NCBI RefSeq assembly: GCF_024158125.1
Contig: NZ_JAMZFT010000001.1
Span: 372,001-436,000, forward strand
Direction of reading: 5' to 3'
Source of the DNA: Futiania mangrovi
Lineage (GTDB): Bacteria > Pseudomonadota > Alphaproteobacteria > Futianiales > Futianiaceae
Length of the DNA: 64,000 nucleotides
Below, piece after piece: positions 5,874-32,879 of this stretch (its first letter is position 1; every line of letters starts with the position of its first letter). Position numbers and translations under genes: made by a program. The notes beneath the pieces were generated by a model that was not told the origin of the DNA, did no database searches, and saw only the letters and a program-made list of their open reading frames with translations.

Positions 5874-6242
5874 GGGAACGCTCCCGCGTGGTCTCGATGC
5901 ACGGGTCGTCCCGGCGCTTTCACCGGCATGGGGGAGGTCGTCCTCGCTTGTGCGGGATATAGAGGCTTTGCCGTCCGGATTGAACAGACCGAAGCGCGAC
6001 TTTTCCTGCGTCGGCCCGAACGGCCGTCGCGATCGCGCATGGGGAGCCGCACAGGACAGTATCGGTCGTGCAGCAGACCGCGAACCCGGACGACAATCAG
6101 ACCATCGGCCGCGCCCGCTTCGCCAGCTTGCCAACTCCGTGAGTCCCTCAAGGGCGGGCACGGAGAGACGCTTCCCGGATGCTTACCTCTTGCTTACCCG
6201 GTTCTTTTGGATGGAGGGTCTTTGTATATAACATATTCAAAT
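5874..6242. other. Gene-free flank left of the island
   Basis: No convincing gene. The open frames here are upstream extensions of the PACE frame or out-of-frame shadows without ribosome-binding sites or recognisable protein. The last 60 bases turn AT-rich (6200-6242). A tandem CTTAC motif (6183-6199, cttacctcttgcttaccc) precedes the att repeat. Confidence 0.6.
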
Positions 6243-6291
6243 TATTGGTGCCGGCTGAGGGACTTGAACCCCCGACCCCCTGATTACAAAT
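6243..6291. repeat. attL: 49-bp partial copy of tRNA-Thr(TGT)
   Basis: Identical over 49 bases to 32538-32586. It covers the CCA end, acceptor 3' strand, T arm, variable loop and anticodon loop (ends ...gattacaaat). After this the sequence departs (gacgcc instead of the anticodon-stem partner), so it is not a functional tRNA. This is the half-gene left by integration into the anticodon-loop region. Confidence 0.92.
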
Positions 6292-7928: not shown

Positions 7929-9248
7929 TCAGGATGGACCCGACAATCTCGGGCGGTTCTTGACCAAGCCGTGATCCGTTTTTCTCCACAGAGAGGGGCA
8001 AACCACCAATTCCACCACGGCAATCGCCATCGCGACGGTGTGCAGGAAGGCATAGAGCGGCAAGGCGAACGCATCCCAGGGCGACCGTTCGGCCCTGATC
8101 GCCGCGACCATGAAGACGATGATGGTCAGGGCGTAGCCGGTGAACAGCAGAACGGCCAGCGGGCCGTGAGGATCGTTGAAGGCGACGGCCATCCCGACAG
8201 GATGGGATGCGAGGCACAAAAGCTGGACCGGGAGTTGAACAGCAAGGGCGACACGATCACGCAGCCGCATCGGCGGGGTCCAGCGGTCGATAGCCTTCGG
8301 CAACAGGCCGTGGACAAGCACGGCTTGAAGCCAACCTTTAATCCAGCGAGAACGCTGTTTCACCCACGCGCTGATCTCTCCGGGCGCTTCCTCCCCTGTG
8401 ACGGACAGGACGACTGACGACGTGTAGCCAGCGCGCGCCAGCCTGACTGCAAGGTCTGCATCCTCAGTAACCGAGTGCGCGTCGAAGGCCCCGACCGCCA
8501 TCAAGGCATCGCGCCTTAAGAATTGAGTGGTCCCGCCAAGGAGGAACGGAACACCTAGCCATGACAGGAACGGGAGCACTCCCTGAAACAAAACGAGATA
8601 TTCAAGTGCCCACAGCCTCGTGACGAGCGGCCCGTCATGGTCACAGGCGAGAACACCCTGAACAGCGGCGCACCTGGGATCAGACAGGAGCCGTGCGACT
8701 GCGCGTCTCGGCTGATCTGGTGCGGGGCGGTCTTCGGCGTCATAGACCACGACGACGCTTCCAGTAGTGTGCAACAGGCCGTAGTTGACCGCCCTCGGCT
8801 TTGTCCGCGGCCTGCCGTCAGGCACAACCAAGACCTGAAACGGCCAGAAGTCGAGTGCTGCGCGTGTCTCGTCGTCGTCCTGCTCGACCAGCAAGACGAT
8901 CTCAAGCGACGGGTAGTCGAGGGCGCGCATCGCGGCCGCAAGGTCCGGGATCACTGACGGCTCGCGATAGACGGGTAAGAGGACGGTCAGGCGCGGCCAT
9001 CGTGCAGGCTCCGGGTCGGTTGCGTCCTGCCACCTGATGAGGGCGGCAGCACGCAGCACGAGGACGGCGAGGAAGCAAGGCACGAGCAGCCATGCCAACG
9101 GCGGCCAGATCAGCGGCAGCAGCGCGACCAGGACGACGACCGCCCCAAGCCAAGGCTCCCTGATCGAACGAGCAGACAGGTGCTCTGGAACGGAAGAAGC
9201 CGCCCGCTGGGCGGCTTCGGTGACGTGGGAGAAGGTTTCGTGTCTCAT
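7929..9248 (-). CDS. Membrane-bound family 2 glycosyltransferase
   Basis: Protein of 439 residues resembling CesA/BcsA- and NfrB-type GT2 enzymes. Two hydrophobic helices are at about 35-70. The GT-A domain starts at PRLTVLLPVYRE (about 85). The metal site is YDAEDRP (D170-D173), the acceptor motif TED is at 261-263 and the processive-type motif QRSRW at 298-302. Two or three C-terminal membrane helices follow. The ATG at 9248 is chosen over upstream extension because it overlaps the stop of the 80-aa gene. It transfers a nucleotide-activated sugar at the inner face of the membrane. In a phage-like element such enzymes may alter the host surface, but the acceptor is unknown. Confidence 0.85.
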   Translation of the reverse strand: MRHETFSHVTEAAQRAASSVPEHLSARSIREPWLGAVVVLVALLPLIWPPLAWLLVPCFLAVLVLRAAALIRWQDATDPEPARWPRLTVLLPVYREPSVIPDLAAAMRALDYPSLEIVLLVEQDDDETRAALDFWPFQVLVVPDGRPRTKPRAVNYGLLHTTGSVVVVYDAEDRPAPDQPRRAVARLLSDPRCAAVQGVLACDHDGPLVTRLWALEYLVLFQGVLPFLSWLGVPFLLGGTTQFLRRDALMAVGAFDAHSVTEDADLAVRLARAGYTSSVVLSVTGEEAPGEISAWVKQRSRWIKGWLQAVLVHGLLPKAIDRWTPPMRLRDRVALAVQLPVQLLCLASHPVGMAVAFNDPHGPLAVLLFTGYALTIIVFMVAAIRAERSPWDAFALPLYAFLHTVAMAIAVVELVVCPSLWRKTDHGLVKNRPRLSGPS

Positions 9249-9487
9249 CCTGTCCACACCTCCCCGAGTTCGGAGGCATCGCGGATGGTGCGCTGATCGC
9301 CAGGGCGCATCTTGCGGGGGCGTGACGACACGGCGACGTGCTTCATCTCTGGACGGGCCCTTGCTCGCGCCGCGATGTTCAGTGCCTGGGTGTAGGAGGA
9401 ACACTTGATGCAGTAGAGGGCACGGCCATTCCTCGCCTCGCCCCAACCGGACAGGAACGTGTCCTGCATGTTGACGAACCACGTCAT
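9245..9487 (-). CDS. Hypothetical protein, 80 aa
   Basis: Small basic protein with two Cys (LYCIKCSS near residue 30) and many Arg. No family recognised. The ATG at 9487 overlaps the stop of the upstream 63-aa gene (ATGA), and its own stop overlaps the glycosyltransferase start, so it is the second gene of a four-gene minus-strand operon. The longer frame upstream of 9487 lies antisense-style over the 63-aa gene and is not used. Confidence 0.6.
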   Translation of the reverse strand: MTWFVNMQDTFLSGWGEARNGRALYCIKCSSYTQALNIAARARARPEMKHVAVSSRPRKMRPGDQRTIRDASELGEVWTG

Positions 9488-11173: not shown

Positions 11174-11417
11174 GATCGTGTCTCCGTTGATGGGGCACAC
11201 AGCGCGCCCGGTGACACGTTCATAAGTTCCATCTTTGTTCTCGCTCAACCGGGGTTCGCGGGGCAAAGATGTTGTTTGTTTGAGACACCTTGGCTGGCGT
11301 TGCCCAATCTGGGGGCGCTTGCTCGAACGTCCTGACCTACGCGCTAGGCGTGGTGCATGTGTGATTGCGCGGCCCCTACATATCGCGTAATCCTAAGCAA
11401 AAGTGAGCAAGCGACAC

Positions 11418-12545
11418 ATGGCCTTCGAGATTCCCCGTTCTGAAACCCAAATCTACCCAATGAACCGACAAGATGCTTTCCGCAGGGCAAGCGCAAAACT
11501 TGCTGGTCATTCGGCCTTTAGCAGTCCCGAGCACAACCTGTGCAAAGGGGACTCGCTCGAATTGCTCAAGATGATTCCGAGCAATTCAATCGACCTCGTG
11601 CTGACTGATCCTCCATATCACTCGACGAAGAAGGCGAACATCTACGGCGACGCGAGTTTTGGCGACGATGAGGAATATCTGACCTGGATGGATCAGTATT
11701 TTGCAGAATGGCACCGCGTCCTTAGGCCCAATGGTTCAATCTATCTTTTCTGCTCGTCGGAAATGATGCCCTTCCTTTATGTTCAGGCGTCCAAGACGAT
11801 GAACATGCACAGCACGATCACCTGGACCAAGCCGAACGAGCCAGGTTATGACGGCTGGAAACAGAAGATGAAGAAAACGGCATTGCGCCAGTGGTATCCG
11901 CACAGCGAGCGGATTATCGTCTGCTCGCCCGCGCGCGAGGGGAACCTTCACAAATCCCCGTTCGGCCTTTTCCTGCGCGATTGCAGGAAGCAATGCGAAT
12001 TGTCCTCGAACGAACTCACGGAGATTATCGGGGCCTACGGCAAGGTCAACAACGGCGGTGCTGTCTCGAACTGGGAAACAGGCCGTAACATTCCGAGCCG
12101 CGAACAGTATGCCAAGATGTGCGCCGCCTTCATCGGCACAGGTAAGATTGCTCTGATGCCTGCCTATGAGGACGTGATCCGCGCCTTCAACGTCGATCCG
12201 AGCCAGCCATTCACCGACGTCTGGGAGCACATGAACGTGCGCCAGTACAAGGGCAAGCACCCAGCCGAGAAGCCGCAGGACTTGCTCAAGTTGATCATAT
12301 CGACCAGCAGTTATGAAGGCGACGTGGTTCTCGACTGCTTCAATGGCTCAGGCGCGACCATGCTCGCGGCCCATGACCTCAACCGCCGTTCCATCGGGAT
12401 CGAGATCGAAGACAAGTGGGTTGAGTATGCGGCGGCAAGCCTTTCTGCGCGGATCAAGGAGGGCAGGACGCAATCTGCTGCGCCGCGCGCCCAGATCGCG
12501 CCGAACGGCAAGGCCCCTGCTGAATTGCCTCTATTCTCAGTTTAG
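11418..12545 (+). CDS. Site-specific DNA methyltransferase (beta class) with inserted XRE-type HTH
   Basis: Protein of 375 residues. Motif IV TDPPYH (DPPY at 64-67) comes first and the AdoMet motif I DCFNGSGAT (306-314) near the end, the beta-class order of N6-adenine/N4-cytosine methylases. Between them, about residues 175-225, lies a segment SSNELTEIIGAYGKVNNGGA followed by VSNWETGRNIPSREQ that looks like an XRE helix-turn-helix and may serve in target recognition or autoregulation. The ATG at 11418 is preferred over GTG 11403; neither has a strong ribosome-binding site. It overlaps by nine bases, tail to tail, with the probable restriction gene. Confidence 0.87.
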   Translation: MAFEIPRSETQIYPMNRQDAFRRASAKLAGHSAFSSPEHNLCKGDSLELLKMIPSNSIDLVLTDPPYHSTKKANIYGDASFGDDEEYLTWMDQYFAEWHRVLRPNGSIYLFCSSEMMPFLYVQASKTMNMHSTITWTKPNEPGYDGWKQKMKKTALRQWYPHSERIIVCSPAREGNLHKSPFGLFLRDCRKQCELSSNELTEIIGAYGKVNNGGAVSNWETGRNIPSREQYAKMCAAFIGTGKIALMPAYEDVIRAFNVDPSQPFTDVWEHMNVRQYKGKHPAEKPQDLLKLIISTSSYEGDVVLDCFNGSGATMLAAHDLNRRSIGIEIEDKWVEYAAASLSARIKEGRTQSAAPRAQIAPNGKAPAELPLFSV

Positions 12546-13654: not shown

Positions 13655-13855
13655 ATGGCAGTGCAGTCGCGCGTGTTACCTGAATGGCCGGAGTGGATGA
13701 GCGAGGAAACCGCCGCCCGCTACATGGACACGTCCCAGAACACCCTCAACTACTGGCGGGCGCACGGGAAAGGCCCTGCGTTTAAACGCATCGGGCAGAG
13801 AATGGTGCGCTATCAGAAGGCGGAACTCGACGCCTTTATGGAGGCGCAGGGATGA
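13655..13855 (+). CDS. HTH_17/excisionase-type DNA-binding protein, 66 aa
   Basis: MerR-like winged helix of the excisionase/HTH_17 type: WMSEETAARYMDTSQNTLNY, then WRAHGKGPAFKRIGQRMVRY, then QKAELDAFMEAQG. A good ribosome-binding site (AAGGAG) lies seven bases before the ATG. The stop overlaps the next gene (ATGA). Such small proteins act as excisionases (Xis) or as transcription regulators of integrated elements. It is the only clear Xis candidate in element A. Confidence 0.82.
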   Translation: MAVQSRVLPEWPEWMSEETAARYMDTSQNTLNYWRAHGKGPAFKRIGQRMVRYQKAELDAFMEAQG

Positions 13856-15045
13856 CCACGTTCCGCGAAAGACAGGATGAGACCGACTTCTTCTGGGAAC
13901 AGGACGAATTGCTTCGGACCTATCGCGGGGTCGTGAAAAAGATCGTGCCTCGCGCGCAGCACATGGCTCGCAAGCATCCGCGCCTCCAGAAGGAAATCTC
14001 GGAATCGACACTGCGGAAGGCGATCAGCGGCGATCACGTCTGGGAACCTATCGCGCAGCTTCTGGCTGAGTTGCGGCGTGAGGTGGCACGCGATCCGCGT
14101 CCGGCTTGCGAACCGCCAGAGATCCCGGAAACCATCGACGCATTCCGCAAGGTGGCGCTCGAATATGCGCCAAACACCTGGTGGTATCGTGCCCTTGCTC
14201 TGGATGACCTCTGCAAGCCGAGTTCGTTCCAGACCTGGATGTCGCGCGGTGAGCCGAAAGAATGGCCTGCGGTCAGGGAGCGTGCCGTTGCATGGCGTTT
14301 GCGCGTCATGTCCGCACTCGATCGCTGGGAACGGTGCGCCCGCGAGCAGTTCGACCGTTTCGAGATGCTCGATACCTGGGTTAAGGACGTTCTCGACGCC
14401 AGGGGCGAAGTCGCGGCCTTGCAGGAGTTCAAGCGCCTGCGGGACTACGAGACAATCTCCTATCACATGTGCTTCGATCCGGCGAACCCTGAACGGCCTC
14501 AGTTCGAGTTCCGTCACCGCAAGGACGAGAGCGAGGACGCGGCGGCGCTCAAGAAGCTGGCCGATGCAGGTTTTCCGCGCTACCGCGCTGACGACCCGAA
14601 ACCGGAAACCTGCGAAGTCGTCAGGACGTTCCAGAACTTTGTCTCGGACGATTTCCGCTGGGAATGGTCCTCGCAGGTGATCGTTGAGCGGACGCTGCGT
14701 TGGGACGCATGGACGCGCGGCATGGCGCGCACGGACAGGTTGCTCAAGGTTCGCGTCAAAGTGCCGTCGTCCCTGGCCGTCGAAGGCGAGACCATTGAAC
14801 AGGACCGCCGCCGCGTCTGGATCGAACGCAAGGCGGAATGGTACTACGAGTTCTCGCCCTACGTCTGGCGGTGGCGGGACGTTGATGAGCACGACATTCC
14901 CGGCGGGGCCGATGCACGGGACGAGGCAATGAGGCGCGCGGGCCTGGATGCTGAGGGGCGTGAGCCTGTTATTGACGGCTACCTTCTGGACTGCATCCCG
15001 CCTATCGAGAAAATCGAACCTGGGCGGGTTTACACCGTCGAATGA
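13852..15045 (+). CDS. Unknown protein, 397 aa, coupled to HTH_17 gene
   Basis: Large acidic and basic mixed protein, rich in Trp (for example NTWWYRALAL, WEWSSQVIVERTLRWDAW, YVWRWRDVDEHD). No domain I recognise. It overlaps the HTH_17 gene by four bases and is followed directly by a terminator. The N-terminal part (KKIVPRAQHMARKHPRLQKE, then ISESTLRKAISGD) resembles a DNA-binding helical region. In this position many phage-plasmids carry a replication initiator, so that is a possibility, but there is no motif to prove it. Confidence 0.65.
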   Translation: MTTFRERQDETDFFWEQDELLRTYRGVVKKIVPRAQHMARKHPRLQKEISESTLRKAISGDHVWEPIAQLLAELRREVARDPRPACEPPEIPETIDAFRKVALEYAPNTWWYRALALDDLCKPSSFQTWMSRGEPKEWPAVRERAVAWRLRVMSALDRWERCAREQFDRFEMLDTWVKDVLDARGEVAALQEFKRLRDYETISYHMCFDPANPERPQFEFRHRKDESEDAAALKKLADAGFPRYRADDPKPETCEVVRTFQNFVSDDFRWEWSSQVIVERTLRWDAWTRGMARTDRLLKVRVKVPSSLAVEGETIEQDRRRVWIERKAEWYYEFSPYVWRWRDVDEHDIPGGADARDEAMRRAGLDAEGREPVIDGYLLDCIPPIEKIEPGRVYTVE

Positions 15046-15048
15046 AAG

Positions 15049-15074
15049 AAGGCCGGCTTGTCGCCGGCCTTTTT
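15049..15074 (+). terminator. Rho-independent terminator
   Basis: Nine-base stem aaggccggc / gccggcctt with a five-base loop, followed by T residues (71-74). It starts three bases after the stop of the 397-aa gene. The A-run on the other side makes it possibly bidirectional, serving the leftward gene ending at 15094 as well. Confidence 0.88.
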
Positions 15075-15093: not shown

Positions 15094-15291
15094 TCAGGCG
15101 AAGGAGGTGCTTGCCGCCGTGCCCTGCGCAAGACGGGCATTGTAGCGCAGCACGGCAAGGGTGCCCATCGCGGCGCGGCGGAAGGACCAGCGGATCAGTT
15201 CGCGGGCATTCTGCGGGTCACGTTCGCGCGCCATCACGTCTTCGATCACCTGGTCGATATGGCGAAGGTCTTCGGCAAGTCCGGGGTTCAT
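15094..15291 (-). CDS. Hypothetical protein, 65 aa
   Basis: Small helical protein (LAEDLRHIDQVIEDVMARER, then DPQNARELIRWSFRRAA). The ATG at 15291 has GGAG eight bases upstream on its strand. No family recognised. It is transcribed leftward from the repeat-rich region 15390-15625, whose palindromes could be its operators. Confidence 0.55.
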   Translation of the reverse strand: MNPGLAEDLRHIDQVIEDVMARERDPQNARELIRWSFRRAAMGTLAVLRYNARLAQGTAASTSFA

Positions 15292-15392
15292 GGTCGGGTC
15301 TCCGTTCTGATGCGCGTCGGGCGCGGTTGATGCTTTGCATCATATCGCCCAGGTGCGGCATGGCTCGACCAAGGATGAAGGTTACTCCTGGA

Positions 15393-15405
15393 ATAACTCG
15401 GTTAT
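15393..15405. promoter_or_regulatory. Palindrome ataac-tcg-gttat (copy 2)
   Basis: Same palindrome as at 6974-6988 and 17331-17343, in the opposite orientation at the centre (tcg rather than cga). It lies about 100 bases upstream of the leftward 65-aa gene. Confidence 0.55.
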
Positions 15406-15421
15406 GCAGGGCGGGCGTTCA

Positions 15422-15438
15422 GGATAACTGGCTTATCC
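15422..15438. promoter_or_regulatory. Palindrome ggataa-ctggc-ttatcc (variant copy)
   Basis: Perfect six-base half-sites with a five-base centre. The inner part ataac-tgg-cttat resembles the ATAAC/GTTAT set. It lies 29 bases after copy 2, as expected for a paired operator. Confidence 0.45.
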
Positions 15439-15463
15439 AGTGCTATCGCTGCTGCGCTCAATA

Positions 15464-15624
15464 GCGCGCGCGTGCATATGCGAAAAAAAATGATGATGAT
15501 TGCGGCGAAACTCATCATCATCATTTTTTTGTTCATATGCGTGTGCGCGCGTTCTGGTGCAGCATTCTGGTTTCGACGCCTCGGGATCATCATCATTTTT
15601 TTTCGCATACACATGCGCGCGTGC
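15464..15624. repeat. Three-armed repeat: GC/CATATGCG-A8-(ATG)4 module
   Basis: Arm 1 (15464-15500) reads a cgcgcg stretch, then catatgcg, a run of eight A and atgatgatgat. Arm 3 (15586-15624) is its reverse complement, identical over atgcg-A8-tgatgatgat. Arm 2 (15511-15549) is a third, imperfect inverted copy. Arms 1 and 2 can form a long hairpin with a short loop, and arms 1 and 3 an alternative one. No good gene is inside. The structure could be a partition or replication site, a transcription-blocking hairpin or a binding-site cluster. Confidence 0.7.
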
Positions 15625-15633
15625 AGATAGCCG

Positions 15634-15882
15634 TCATTCCTGAGCATAAACGCCCACGGCGTTCAGGATCGGCACTTTTGGAAAGCGGTCCTGCCGTCGC
15701 TGAAAGGCGATGAGCGTCACCTGCGCGAGATCGTCCTTGCTGATGCGTGCATGGCCAGCTTCTGCAAGCGCCGTGCAAACATGGAAGTAGAAGGCGACCT
15801 TTCCCATGTCCTCTGTCACCTCGTCGCCGATCTGCTCGGCCAGCTTCCGCAGCGGCAGGCTGATTGTCATTTGCTCGTCCAT
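15634..15882 (-). CDS. Hypothetical protein, 82 aa
   Basis: Small helical acidic protein (ISLPLRKLAEQIGDEVTEDM, then GKVAFYFHVCTALAEAGHAR). The start ATG 15882 is chosen because GGAGG lies five bases upstream; an ATG at 15894 would add four residues. The middle (HARISKDDLAQVTLIAFQRR) may be a helix-turn-helix, which would make it a candidate for binding the nearby repeats. No family recognised. Confidence 0.5.
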   Translation of the reverse strand: MDEQMTISLPLRKLAEQIGDEVTEDMGKVAFYFHVCTALAEAGHARISKDDLAQVTLIAFQRRQDRFPKVPILNAVGVYAQE

Positions 15883-15966
15883 TGCATCCTCCATCGTCGA
15901 ACCGACGATACAGGGCAGCGCGTTCTGCCGCGACCGATCCTTCAGGAGAGGGCGTGACCACCCAAA

Positions 15967-16022
15967 ATGTCAGCCTTGGTGACGTATCTCGCGAGCGCGG
16001 TATGTCAGCCTTGGTGACGTAT
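15967..16022. repeat. 21-bp direct repeat, two copies
   Basis: The 21-base unit tgtcagccttggtgacgtat with a leading a occurs at 15967-15987 and 16002-16022, so one copy per 35 bases. Each contains gtca...tgac half-sites. It lies upstream of the leftward 82-aa gene and of the rightward small-gene cluster. Likely a protein-binding iteron pair; with only two copies it is not a CRISPR. Confidence 0.65.
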
Positions 16023-16331
16023 TCTGCGCCCATCGACGAAAACCGCGTTCAGCGCGTCAGCGAAGGCGGTTCGTGCCTCTGCCCTACATCGACGCCCAAA
16101 CGCGCAAGACGCCGCCTCACGCCTCAGCTCTGCCGCGCTCTGCACCATGCGCCGCGCATGTCGTCGCCGTCGTCCTGCATCGCGCCCCGTCGGTCGCGGT
16201 CAAGCATCGGTCAAACTGATGGCTGCGCGCGGTCAACGGCTTGATGGTGCAGACGTTCCACCTTGATTGATCATCAGTTCGCGGCGCTCCACCTTCGATC
16301 TCGGTCGGATCGCCCAAAGTGAGGTTGTATC
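16023..16331. other. Non-coding stretch between divergent small genes
   Basis: No convincing gene. Open frames here lack ribosome-binding sites. The stretch holds the space between the leftward 82-aa gene and the rightward cluster starting at 16365, so it probably contains the promoters of that cluster. Confidence 0.4.
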
Positions 16332-16334
16332 GTG

Positions 16335-16367
16335 CAAGGGACTGACAACGCTAGGAGAAGTCCCTTG
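16335..16367 (+). promoter_or_regulatory. Hairpin enclosing the ribosome-binding site of the 61-aa gene
   Basis: A perfect nine-base inverted repeat, caagggact (16335-16343) and agtcccttg (16359-16367), encloses a 15-base loop that contains AGGAG. The 3' arm ends in the TTG start codon. The transcript would expose the AGGAG in the loop but pair the start codon, suggesting control of translation. Confidence 0.5.
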
Positions 16368-16550
16368 AAGAAGCCCAAACCTGCTCCAAAGGCAGACGAC
16401 CGCCTCGCCGCGCTCCACGCCCAAGGCCTCGACGTGACAGGCATTGCCGACCGCGACGGCACGCCTCTGGTTCAGTGGCGCAAGCCGCCGACCGAAGCCG
16501 AGCGCGCGCAAGCCAACCTGATCCTGCCGGGAGCGCTGCACGATGCTTGA
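16365..16550 (+). CDS. Hypothetical protein, 61 aa (TTG start)
   Basis: Short basic protein (KKPKPAPKADDRLAALHAQG, then LDVTGIADRDGTPLVQWRKP). TTG at 16365 is chosen because AGGAG lies about seven bases upstream. GTG at 16332 has no such site. The stop overlaps the next gene start (16543). First of a chain of small overlapping genes. Confidence 0.5.
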   Translation: MKKPKPAPKADDRLAALHAQGLDVTGIADRDGTPLVQWRKPPTEAERAQANLILPGALHDA

Positions 16551-16749
16551 CGCCGCAACTCTCGTGGACGTTCGGCGCACTGACTGCGCCATCACTTTCT
16601 TCTGGTCTGACCAACCCACCGGCTACCAGCGCAAGGTGGCCGAGGACGCGAACCCATCGAACGGCCTGCGCGTCGGCCATTCCTGGCCGGGACCGCGTGA
16701 CGAAGGCGCTCCCGGCGTATACCGGATTACCGGAGGCAGGCCGTTTTGA
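16543..16749 (+). CDS. Hypothetical protein, 68 aa
   Basis: Compact protein with beta-like pattern (VRRTDCAITFFWSDQPTGYQ, then KVAEDANPSNGLRVGHSWPG). The ATG lies inside the end of the previous gene (eight-base overlap). No family recognised. Confidence 0.55.
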   Translation: MLDAATLVDVRRTDCAITFFWSDQPTGYQRKVAEDANPSNGLRVGHSWPGPRDEGAPGVYRITGGRPF

Positions 16750-18805: not shown

Positions 18806-19522
18806 GTGTCGGTGAACCGCTTCACGACCAACAAGAGCGACCACGCGCAGCAGCATATGTGGGCTGCCGTGGTGTTGATGGCCGTCAACGACGCTTTCAC
18901 TGTCATGCGGGACCGGACAGAACTCGACCGGGCAGAGGCCCTGCGCTTCTTGCTCGCGCCTCATGGGGCCTGGGCCAAGTCGCGGGAACATGTCTGCTCA
19001 TGTGCAGGTGCAGAACCCGACCGTCTGCACACCTGGGCGCTCGAAGTCATGGCCGGAAAGGTGGTTTTTGGCACCCCTAAGGAAGTGCAGGCATCGCGCG
19101 ACCTTTGGACCGCCATGAACGCGCCGCGCGAGAAGCCGCAGCCAACCGCGAAGGCCGAGATCGCTCCTGCACCCGACGCAGGGGCGATTCCGCTCCCCTC
19201 CATCGTCGATACCTTTGGCGTCTTCGACGTGCGAGACGACGGCACGCTCGTCTGCCCGAACTCTCGCCCGCTGACCGGCCCGTCCTTGCCGCGCGAAAAC
19301 TCCCAGCAAGGGCGCGTCCTGAAAGCCCTGACGATGCAACGGGGCGGCACCCTCAACAGCCTCCGCAAGGCCTACGCGAAGTGGGAACAGGTCGCGGTCG
19401 AGTTGTGCCGCCGCCTCGACCTGGAACTGATCTACCGTCACGATGGGCATGAGGTCGATGGCATCGTTGATGCCGATACCAAGGTCTTTGTCAGACGGCG
19501 GCTCCTTTCACCCGCTGCATGA
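18806..19522 (+). CDS. Hypothetical protein, 238 aa (GTG start)
   Basis: Protein of 238 residues. The N-terminal helix region (QHMWAAVVLMAVNDAFTVMR) and a CSCAG motif come first, then a Pro/Ala-rich linker, and a C-terminal segment with a winged-helix look (QGRVLKALTMQRGGTLNSLR, then KAYAKWEQVAVELCRRLDLE). The GTG at 18806 lies four bases after the previous stop. Its end overlaps the convergent integrase by 32 bases. Function unknown; a regulator or structural protein are both possible. Confidence 0.6.
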   Translation: MSVNRFTTNKSDHAQQHMWAAVVLMAVNDAFTVMRDRTELDRAEALRFLLAPHGAWAKSREHVCSCAGAEPDRLHTWALEVMAGKVVFGTPKEVQASRDLWTAMNAPREKPQPTAKAEIAPAPDAGAIPLPSIVDTFGVFDVRDDGTLVCPNSRPLTGPSLPRENSQQGRVLKALTMQRGGTLNSLRKAYAKWEQVAVELCRRLDLELIYRHDGHEVDGIVDADTKVFVRRRLLSPAA

Positions 19523-20370
19523 TCTCGTCTGCGACCGCCTGAACGGCGTTCCGCACGTCAGGGGTCACGACGTAGGAGTCGGTCATGTTGCCCGCAGCGT
19601 GACCCATCTGCGCCGCGCGCTGCGCATGGGGGATACCGATCTCGGTCGCGATGGAATCCCATTCGTTGCGCGTGTCCTTCGGACGCCATGTCTGCGTCTT
19701 GTAAGTCAGGGTCGGCAGAGACTGGAGGTAGCCCTTCGACGAGTGCGACGGGAAGACCCAGAACCCACCCGACTTGATCTCGCGCAGGCGCTTCAACTGG
19801 CGCACTGTCCAGGTCGAGATCGCCACATCACGCGGCAGGCCGCGCTTCGGGTCGCGGACGTGAATCTTCGCGCCGTCGAGGTCAACGTCCTGCCACCGGA
19901 GCGAGAGCACCTCGCCTTTGCGCAGGCCCGTCAGCAGCAGAACCTTGAGCGCGCTCTTGGAATAGAGGTCGTCGATCCGATCAACCTCGCGCCACCAATG
20001 GAACACGTCCTTGATCCGCTTCGGGTTGCGGATCACCGTCGACCAACCCTTCGGGAGCGAGGTCGTCGGAACTCGCGTGATCACCTCACGCCGCTGGGCA
20101 TCGTGCATCACAGCCGAGACGACGCGCATCAGCGCCTTCGCTGTCACCACGCTCGAACGAGACAGCCGCCTCCACGTTGTCAGCACGTCCTGCGGGGTGA
20201 TCTCGACGGTCGCGCGCTCGAACCAGTCGGGGACATGGACCTTCAAGGTGCGCTCATACTCAGTCAAGGTCGAGGACTTTGCCTTGGAGCCGAAGTGACG
20301 GTACTCGTGCCACGTCTGCGCGAACGTCTCGACCTGACCCGGCTGCGGGCGGGGATCGTCGCGCGAGATA
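19491..20370 (-). pseudogene. Tyrosine recombinase (integrase A), 5'-truncated
   Basis: C-terminal catalytic domain with LLTGLRKGEVLSLRW (first catalytic Arg), the box II region KDTRNEWDSIATEIGI and MGHAAGNMTDSYV (His and Tyr nucleophile). The core-binding domain is also present: FAQTWHEYRHFGSKAKSSTL, then TEYERTLKVHVPDWF. The N-terminal arm-binding part is missing. The frame is open to 20381, where TAG closes it, with no good start codon; the only early one is TTG 20267 inside the core-binding domain. Exactly there the sequence runs into the other integrase on the opposite strand. Probably inactive. Confidence 0.85.
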
Positions 20371-29861: not shown

Positions 29862-30278
29862 TCATTCGGGTGCGAGAAAGCTTTGCAGGCAGCTTTCAAG
29901 TAAGCACTGGTCTCGTGTCTCGCACTCCCAAACGACCAAAACCCGCCATCCGGCTTCAGCCAACGCCTTTTGTGCGGCGGCGTCGCGCTCGACGTTCCGC
30001 TTGAGTTTCGGTCCCCAGTAGGCAGTGTTCGACTTCGGTACTCGACCGTCGAGGCAGGCAGCCTTATCGTGCTGGTGCCAGAAGCACCCGTGGACGAAGA
30101 TCGCGGCACGCCGTGGACCGAACACGAGGTCGGGTTTGCCGGGGAGGTCCTTTCGATGGAGGCGATACCGGTAGCCAAGACGGTGAACAAGACGGCGAAC
30201 CACCATCTCGGGTTTCATGTCTTTGCTGCGGATGCGGCGCATATTCTCGCTTCGCCGCTGCGGCGATAGCTTGTCCAT
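29862..30278 (-). CDS. vsr: Very short patch repair endonuclease Vsr
   Basis: 138 residues, normal Vsr length. Conserved features are SENMRRIRSKDMKPE, LPGKPDLVF (catalytic Asp50) and FVHGCFWHQH (63-70), then WECE near the C-terminus. It nicks beside T of T:G mismatches that arise from deaminated 5-methylcytosine and so protects the sites of the neighbouring C5 methylase. It overlaps no gene but lies one base from the NaeI-like gene, on the same strand. Order Dcm, nuclease, Vsr is the standard cassette. Confidence 0.95.
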   Translation of the reverse strand: MDKLSPQRRSENMRRIRSKDMKPEMVVRRLVHRLGYRYRLHRKDLPGKPDLVFGPRRAAIFVHGCFWHQHDKAACLDGRVPKSNTAYWGPKLKRNVERDAAAQKALAEAGWRVLVVWECETRDQCLLESCLQSFLAPE

Positions 30279-31216: not shown

Positions 31217-32173
31217 TCAAGCAGTGAGCCGTGCCGTCCGTCCGGATAGGGCTTCCTTGATCTGGGCCGAGACAGCACGCGCGACCGGAGGAGGGAACGC
31301 GTTGCCTACTTGCCGATACGCGTTCGTCTTTCGGCCAACAAATTTCCAGTCATCAGGGAACCCTTGGATTCGGGCGACCATTTGAACGGTTAATCGAGGC
31401 ATTCCAACAAAGTCAGGACCAGGCGCCGTTTCCGCAATCGTCTTGCCGTTCACGCCCAGCATCTGCCAAGCTCGACGTGCCCGGGTCGGACCGAGATCAG
31501 GTCCACCATGCTTCTTCGATCCACCCACAATGGTGGGCGCAATCTCGTCCGCGCGCTCGGCCCAAGCCTTGGCACCCGGCCAGCCACCCTCAGCCATTAG
31601 GTCGCGAAGAACCTTTCCTACCGTCGGCGGGTTTTGGTGCCGTTCCTCCGGCCACTCAAACCCGTCAGCATGGTCTCTCTGGACCGCGACAATCACGACC
31701 CTTGGGCGCAGTTGCGGAACGCCGAAGTGAGAGGCATTCAGGAGCCGCCAGTCGGTCACGTATCCGAGCTGACTCAATTGCCGCTTGAGCCCCTCCCGGT
31801 AATCGAAGAACACGGCGTCCAAGAAGCCCCGGACATTCTCGATCATCACGGCGCGGGGTCGGATAGCATCGACGATGTCCAACGCGTCGGGAAACAGGTT
31901 GCGCTCGTCTTTTTCACCGAGTTGCTTCCCCGCAACTGAGAAGGGTGGGCACGGCAGACCTCCGGCGACGAGATCGATGCCACGAAACTTGTGGGCATCC
32001 TCTTTGAAGCGGCGGAGATCATCCTCGATAACGTTCCAGCTTGGCCGGTTTGCCGTCAGTGTCGCGCAGCAGTGGGCGTCAATCTCGACCAGTGCCTCAT
32101 GGCCGAAGCCAGCCTGTTCTAGTCCTAGCGCTTGGCCACCTGCGCCTGCGCAGAGTTCCACCGACGACAACAT
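31217..32173 (-). CDS. DNA (cytosine-5-)-methyltransferase
   Basis: 318 residues with all main C5-methylase motifs: AdoMet site ELCAGAGGQALGLEQAGF (about 6-23), catalytic GGLPCPPFS (Cys75), ENV (112-114), a QLRPRVVIV motif VIII, a variable recognition region, and QVGNAFPPPVA near the C-terminus. It is the protecting enzyme for the NaeI-like nuclease and the source of the 5-methylcytosines served by Vsr. ATG 32173 is the family start (MLSSVELCAG). It is the first gene of the leftward cassette. Confidence 0.95.
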   Translation of the reverse strand: MLSSVELCAGAGGQALGLEQAGFGHEALVEIDAHCCATLTANRPSWNVIEDDLRRFKEDAHKFRGIDLVAGGLPCPPFSVAGKQLGEKDERNLFPDALDIVDAIRPRAVMIENVRGFLDAVFFDYREGLKRQLSQLGYVTDWRLLNASHFGVPQLRPRVVIVAVQRDHADGFEWPEERHQNPPTVGKVLRDLMAEGGWPGAKAWAERADEIAPTIVGGSKKHGGPDLGPTRARRAWQMLGVNGKTIAETAPGPDFVGMPRLTVQMVARIQGFPDDWKFVGRKTNAYRQVGNAFPPPVARAVSAQIKEALSGRTARLTA

Positions 32174-32537: not shown

Positions 32538-32616
<79 letters not shown>

Positions 32617-32879
32617 GCCGGGGCCGGGTCGGGGCGTCCGTAATTTGACGCGCACCATTGCCTCCCGGGCGATGCCGCGCGTTTTAGCCGATCGCGGCGC
32701 AGCTGGCCAGATGCCTTCCTCTGCGGGCGCGGTTTGCTCCGCCTGTGCGCGTGCGCGTCCCCTCGCGTGACGGCCATGCGCGCCGCCTTCGGTCCTCGCG
32801 CGCTCAGGGGATGCGTTCGGGCGTGCAATCCTCTATATCTCGCGCCCGGCGCCGCCCCTTCGAAGAGAGAGTCCCACGC

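Follow-up and report, generated by a model that had tools for sequence, protein, structure and literature searches.

The window analysed here, a stretch of 64,000 nucleotides from Futiania mangrovi, contains an island bounded by 45-bp att-like direct repeats, of which the left copy lies at 6247–6291 and the right copy, at 32542–32586, is located inside a tRNA-Thr(TGT) gene according to tRNA and repeat comparison. A family scan recognised a 66-aa excisionase-like HTH_17 protein (13655–13855, + strand), adjoined by a gene encoding a 397-aa protein (13852–15045, +) that served as the marker of the whole family in profile searches. Directly after this gene stands an ordinary GC-rich terminator-like hairpin with a T run (15046–15074, +), located by repeat search and from the sequence. 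A conserved small gene of 65 aa (15094–15291, − strand; ORF comparison) follows in the reverse direction, with a −10-like hexamer TATGAT assigned by eye at 15339–15344 (−). The space between the small gene and the three-armed element at 15464–15625 contains the palindrome ATAAC-TCG-GTTAT, that is ATAACTCGGTTAT (15393–15405), and a second inverted repeat, GGATAACTGGCTTATCC, noticed by eye (15422–15438). This arrangement agrees with the sequence-only reading, which had placed the element in a control region with palindromes. Further to the right are an 86-aa gene of unknown function (15634–15894, −), also detected in L031 and L084 by ORF comparison, and two copies of a 21-bp direct repeat revealed by repeat search (15967–15987, with GTCA-N7-TGAC inside, and 16002–16022, both +), which recur in genomes G385 and G386. 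The tyrosine integrase ORF found by family scan (19491–20267, −) encodes 258 aa, compared with 415 aa in L083.

Two HTH-like stretches can be seen by eye in the 397-aa protein. No Pfam or PHROGs match was obtained for it at the default limit, and at E values up to 1 only single weak PHROGs matches appeared; sequence comparison with the PDB gave no match of meaning, and no known initiator was matched. Two AlphaFold models are of low confidence, the model of the protein having a pLDDT of 52.6, and fold searches returned no meaningful match.

Several other features of the region were recorded. Just outside the island, a Guanidine-II riboswitch (mini-ykkC) scores above the Rfam cut-off at 5901–5949 (−). 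The segment 20377–24918 contains a further integrase, an ORF that by eye resembles AlpA and a primase-helicase-like gene with Toprim/AAA_25 domains, after which come two exact 23-bp repeats (24850 and 24896); it has the look of a second element within the island, equipped with iteron-like repeats of its own. A family-2 glycosyltransferase, which by eye appears to be a cargo gene common to three islands, is encoded at 7929–9482 (−) of the window, at 1442–2809 of the reverse complement of L083 and at 15384–16733 of the reverse complement of L082; the window copy was assigned by Pfam and the other two by their similar N-termini, by eye. By eye, three ORFs resemble a DNA methyltransferase (11403–12545), a Vsr endonuclease (29862–30278) and a Dcm-type methyltransferase (31217–32173), and they may represent defence-type cargo.

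The element consists of three arms (15464–15500, 15514–15552 and 15586–15625), as established by reading the sequence and by a repeat search of the window, and each of them runs from the inside outward through a triplet repeat, an A/T tract and a stretch of purine-pyrimidine (RY) alternation. In arm 1, a 19-bp RY tract (15464–15482), whose RY class is conserved in 13 copies, precedes an A8 tract with TGATGATGAT triplets (15483–15500, +), which forms the 5′ half of a covarying inverted repeat. Across a loop of 13 nt (15501–15513), the 3′ half is provided by the ATCATCATCAT triplets and T tract of arm 2 (15514–15530, +), followed by another 19-bp RY tract (15534–15552). Arm 3 constitutes an extra half-element, with ATCATCATCAT and a T tract at 15586–15603 (+) and a 22-bp RY tract at 15604–15625, the longest in the window. 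The repeat search aligned 15465–15500 with 15514–15549 and with 15586–15621, both inverted relative to arm 1, which confirms the module of one direct and two inverted copies described in the sequence-only reading; what that reading had called alternating GC and catatgcg is strict purine-pyrimidine alternation. Together with its flank, arm 2 is 76% complementary to arm 1 over 51 nt; arm 3 matches arm 1 at 92% over 36 nt at a distance of 85 nt, and is a direct repeat of arm 2 at 81%. RY runs of at least 15 bp are confined in the 64-kb window to those of the arms (22, 19 and 19 bp) and one of 15 bp at 32744. A genome-wide search found the element in single copy in its own genome, which rules out a dispersed repeat.

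The arms fold strongly in silico. For arms 1 and 2 together, z-scores of −6.2 (+ strand) and −6.5 (− strand) were obtained and none of 200 shuffles folded as well, while the whole 172 nt folded as DNA gave z = −6.3. With RNA parameters, the pairing of arms 1 and 3 reached −64.0 kcal/mol when arm 2 was blocked, and that of arms 1 and 2 reached −53.7 kcal/mol when arm 3 was blocked. On the basis of this blocking test the two hairpins are true alternatives, as had been proposed from the sequence. An intrinsic terminator was considered and rejected, since the stem beside the T run is formed by TGATGATGAT and is not GC-rich, and the T run itself is situated inside the larger repeat; the GC-rich hairpin at 15046–15074, after the 397-aa gene of the same locus, offers a direct contrast and bears out the earlier view that the element is no standard terminator. 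No Rfam family matched the element at the curated cut-off, where only sub-threshold microRNA-type matches of 19–27 bits were seen. The arms did not stand out in a simple Z-DNA energy sum, in which other 60-bp bins scored as well.

Relatives were sought by DNA pattern, by DNA similarity and by protein. A pattern scan of genome contigs yielded 54 loci, of which only three carry the structure, namely L011 (Defluviimonas sp. WL0050, genome G385), L031 (Paracoccus limosus) and L050 (a Rhodobacteraceae MAG); the remainder lack an inverted partner. DNA search in 394 genomes of the family of G385 matched G385 and five others, among which G500, G521 and G601 carry the structure, whereas the matches in G658 and G683 look like chance. 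Two further class-wide matches, L006 and L007, were noted. The genome sets of the window's own genus, family and order contain only the window's genome. Profile searches with the 397-aa family gave hits in 9 of 390 and 11 of 355 genomes, two overlapping sets, and contributed 13 further genomes; among plasmids, a search by protein located the element on the Rhodobacteraceae plasmid pSC52_1, at 30% protein identity. Altogether 21 loci were collected, from 20 genomes (including that of the window) and one plasmid, and the 19 other genomes with relatives of the 397-aa protein all fall in the order of a Defluviimonas genome. Window sequences used as queries against plasmids, phages and IMG/VR gave nothing of use, nor did additional phage, plasmid and IMG/VR searches; one Acinetobacter phage match covers 28 bases only and is spurious.

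Among the 14 relatives found by protein alone, nine have the composite element in the same place, 3′ of the gene (G859, G1000, G1008, G912, G431, G412, G682, G508 and SC52), three have an RY tract only and two lack the element. G508 is a weaker case, since 7 of 50 shuffles reach its RY run of 15; in G431 the half-element is present in two direct copies, together with one inverted triplet arm. RY runs of 20–26 bp with no clear core occur in G878, G949 and G598, the last with a shortened gene, while G616 and G464 are without the element. In 17 of the 20 genomes none of 50 shuffles matched the longest RY run, and the best ungapped hairpin gave the same count (17/20), although G616 and G464 have hairpins of a different type, differently built in the case of G464. 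A covariance model (R1), built with an imposed structure, matched 6 of 295 genomes at E ≤ 0.001, always at a gene of the 397-aa family and in the same place, and recognised the pSC52_1 locus, left out of model building, at E = 6.4e-11. Place and architecture are kept even in distant relatives with 16–22% protein identity to the window protein. The search for the arm in other elements, suggested at the outset, has thereby led to the islands of relatives, where the element sits beside the 397-aa family gene.

The arms themselves vary in number and order. Besides the window, G385 and G386 have a third arm and G387 does not; three of the four closest copies contain it, and it is missing from most relatives. 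The third arm is a local extra and not a core part of the element; a three-armed form, as first described, holds for the window copy and is not general in the family. An independent three-armed version occurs in a distant relative (L093, 3220–3370), with reversed triplet order (AATAATCATCA twice direct and once inverted). On pSC52_1 (L116, 10375–10468), triplets and A/T tract exchange their order and both RY flanks (25 and 20 bp) are kept.

The islands share a core order of integrase, HTH gene, 397-aa gene, one or more reversed small genes, the element and rightward genes, with the integrase at the opposite end in the window and in L083. A tRNA-Thr(TGT) gene is present in the window, L081 and L116, and none was found in the other stretches examined. 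An integrase and an excisionase-like HTH gene at a tRNA site, as used to recognise phage satellites of the PICI-like type, are both found here. Moreover, terminase large-subunit domains are encoded beyond the element in L079, L080, L082 and L116 (the SC52 element), the last also with a DUF4055 protein, fitting phage satellites, which the islands resemble. In the window, no terminase was recognised among the scanned ORFs that separate the element from the integrase, so the window copy is a putative satellite. In several relatives, approximately 0.4–1 kb beyond the element has no assigned gene and contains further palindromes. Lineage-specific palindromes (ACTGATAGGCTATCAGT, GTTGCGANNNAGTCGCAAC and others) were observed there in L079, L089, L091, L092, L102 and L116.

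An alignment of 13 copies was used to determine what is conserved. Standard pairs account for 88.6% of cells, and 13 of 36 pairs have changed on both sides; in the A/T-rich triplet stem, for instance, TGA is replaced by TGT or TTA on both sides. As a stricter control, whole 3′ arms were exchanged between copies in 5000 swaps. The inner triplet stem has 133 of 143 Watson-Crick cells compared with 112.8 after swapping, and the junction 55 of 65 compared with 39.4, values reached in 0/5000 swaps for both. By contrast, the outer arms pair in 125 of 182 cells against 123.1 when swapped (1869/5000), their own partner being no better than a foreign arm, and the A/T tract shows a weak preference for its own partner (59/78 against 56.4; 312/5000). 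The same picture emerged with nine clade representatives. One long covarying stem is rejected on these grounds, as the outer arms failed the arm-swap test. The long hairpins first proposed fold strongly, as stated above, and only their inner A/T part and the junction show the compensatory pairing expected of a selected stem or cruciform.

The outer arms nevertheless retain their R/Y class in 98% of cells, with 79% base identity. In the outer arms, 599 differences between copies are transitions and 72 are transversions, compared with 266 and 502 in the loop and 144 and 216 in the inner stem. These counts, taken over pairs of copies, lack independence; any two alternating sequences will naturally align in phase, and alternation would also survive transitions of the CpG type. 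Within single copies, 10 of 13 five-prime arms alternate perfectly over 16 nt and the other three do so in 13 of 15 steps. Since the outer arms fail the swap test yet keep their R/Y class, they represent a conserved RY tract rather than a selected stem. Long RY alternation that persists through base change, as expected of a Z-DNA tract, is found at the sequence level and is suggestive of Z-DNA. The element shows conservation of two distinct kinds and co-occurs with a single gene family, and random low-complexity growth, named earlier as the outcome if arms and covariation proved not to be conserved, is not borne out.

Among the explanations to be weighed, neutral growth or a chance repeat is very improbable. 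Slippage can create dinucleotide and triplet repeats and CG to TG/CA transitions preserve RY alternation; however, the same place and architecture recur in the distant relatives, the RY tracts show a strong deficit of transversions, and the inner stem has changed on both sides. A structured leader RNA of the rightward operon, either an attenuator or a P4-CI-like immunity RNA, would account for the strong folding and the covarying inner stem, and G·T wobbles slightly exceed A·C wobbles on the + strand. This excess (31 versus 19 clade events) is not significant (P = 0.12), and a strand bias was rejected accordingly; RY alternation has no obvious role in RNA, no Rfam family was found on the element at the cut-off, and promoter-like sequence is seen by eye close to the first rightward gene in L089 and L090, all of which make an RNA leader unlikely. 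TATGAT, TACAAT or TATATT stands at the place of the small gene's −10-like hexamer in 16 of 17 loci inspected by eye, with the palindrome between it and the element. Owing to this position and the lack of a significant wobble strand preference, the RNA switch considered in the sequence-only reading is unsupported, and for the partition locus named there no supporting evidence was found. A packaging (cos/pac) site read by the island's own or a helper terminase, about as improbable as the RNA leader, would agree with the terminase domains beyond the element in L079, L080, L082 and SC52 and with the DUF4055 protein in SC52; against it, the element is intact in the window, where the scanned ORFs between element and integrase include no recognised terminase, and it is tied to the 397-aa gene.

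A supercoil-sensitive transcription switch appears nearly as likely as a replication origin, and packaging site and RNA leader less so, although the switch too is doubtful when taken by itself. RY tracts and cruciform core would absorb negative supercoils and couple or insulate the divergent genes, and the 397-aa protein would bind the neighbouring ATAAC-GTTAT palindrome. The element indeed lies between the leftward promoter-like site (16 of 17 loci) and the rightward operon; the palindrome recurs in relatives, exactly or as ATAACTTGGTTAT, ATAACTCAGTTGT or ATAACTGAGTTGT, with a regular-expression match in 11 of 20 loci; and RY alternation is conserved as such and not as pairing. Nonetheless, the element is separated from the −10-like site of the small gene by well over 100 bp and from the start of the rightward genes by at least 0.4 kb, and the RY tracts persist at three loci where the core is degenerate.

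RY alternation matters for the handedness of the DNA helix. Because of this, and because the promoter-like site of the small gene is beyond the palindrome, we infer that the element acts at the DNA level. Its shape is kept while its letters change, which would probably make it the islands' replication start or control switch. Our tentative preference is for a cis-acting DNA locus that is most likely the replication origin of the island, served by the adjacent 397-aa protein. The anatomy consists of an A/T-rich inverted repeat between RY-alternating tracts, in non-coding DNA between the leftward small gene and the rightward operon. In an origin of this kind, the A/T-rich core may serve as the unwinding element, extruding as a cruciform or melting. 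The RY tracts, which tend to become left-handed when negatively supercoiled, may set or take up torsion at the edges of this core. Binding of the element by the 397-aa protein (in some lineages by host DnaA) would start replication once the island is excised, and the third arm could be a duplicated half-site.

Four points underlie the origin reading: a core rich in A/T, a putative DNA-binding protein encoded next to it, DnaA boxes in some copies and the precedent of PLE, the Vibrio cholerae phage satellite. TTWTNCACA boxes occur at tract junctions in 4 of 14 copies (2, 2, 2 and 1), and exact boxes are absent from the other 10, including that of the window. An A at every third base, at least three times in both arms, is found in 13 of 14 copies and satisfies the middle-adenine form of the DnaA-trio, a weak pattern; runs of at least three consecutive 3′-GAT-5′ trios occur in 0 of 14, which excludes a strict DnaA-trio origin. 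No iteron common to all loci was found. These missing window boxes, strict trios and common iterons speak against an origin, as do the 397-aa protein without a match to a known initiator and the relatives found by protein, 2 of 14 without the element and 3 of 14 with an RY tract only.

The locus belongs to a known class, the cis-acting loci of mobile elements, and there is a real chance that it is something further from known systems. It may, though we hold this with slightly less confidence than the origin, represent a new type of cis-acting module in an undescribed family of satellite-like islands, in which a covarying A/T repeat lies between RY tracts under selection for their propensity to form left-handed DNA, irrespective of sequence or pairing. 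Such a module would be a torsion-driven origin or switch, opened by the matching unclassified two-HTH protein, to which half-sites can be added to give two or three arms. Among the mainly open-access papers searched, none was recognised as describing the element or the island family. To our knowledge, selection for purine-pyrimidine alternation apart from sequence and pairing is rarely visible in bacteria, and one mobile-element family here gives a natural alignment showing a pattern of this type. If the locus is an origin or a switch, it would allow a direct test of whether non-B DNA plays a part in the life cycle of phage satellites. The 397-aa protein and the locus can also serve as a search tag for an island family without a name in the literature searched.

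Known systems share single traits with this locus. PLE encodes the initiator RepA, without primase or helicase, and has repeats at its origin; a satellite origin with its own non-primase, non-helicase initiator would be analogous to what is proposed here (PMC7145576). The islands differ in having one RY-flanked inverted repeat instead of the iteron sets described there for PLE (PMC7145576), a tyrosine-type integrase, and a 397-aa protein without detectable RepA_N relation (no Pfam match, no meaningful PDB match and a low-confidence model). PICMI, likewise a small integrative element with an integrase and an AlpA/HTH_17-type regulator, is searched for with a model that requires primase and Fis (PMC10803314). 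Pfam recognised neither of these in those core ORFs of the window that were scanned; the present islands have the 397-aa protein instead, along with a terminase in several members. The DnaA-box/DnaA-trio layout of bacterial oriC (PMC8287927) is echoed by the GC-rich part, the A/T tract, the triplets with A at every third base and the boxes of 4 of 14 copies; the element departs from it by the absence of a 3′-GAT-5′ trio run, by its inverted-repeat layout and by the lack of boxes in most copies. With Z-DNA- and cruciform-forming sequences it has in common the long RY alternation and the A/T-rich inverted repeat. Such sequences occur at promoters and origins, whereas here both are combined in a fixed layout that is conserved in one mobile-element family.
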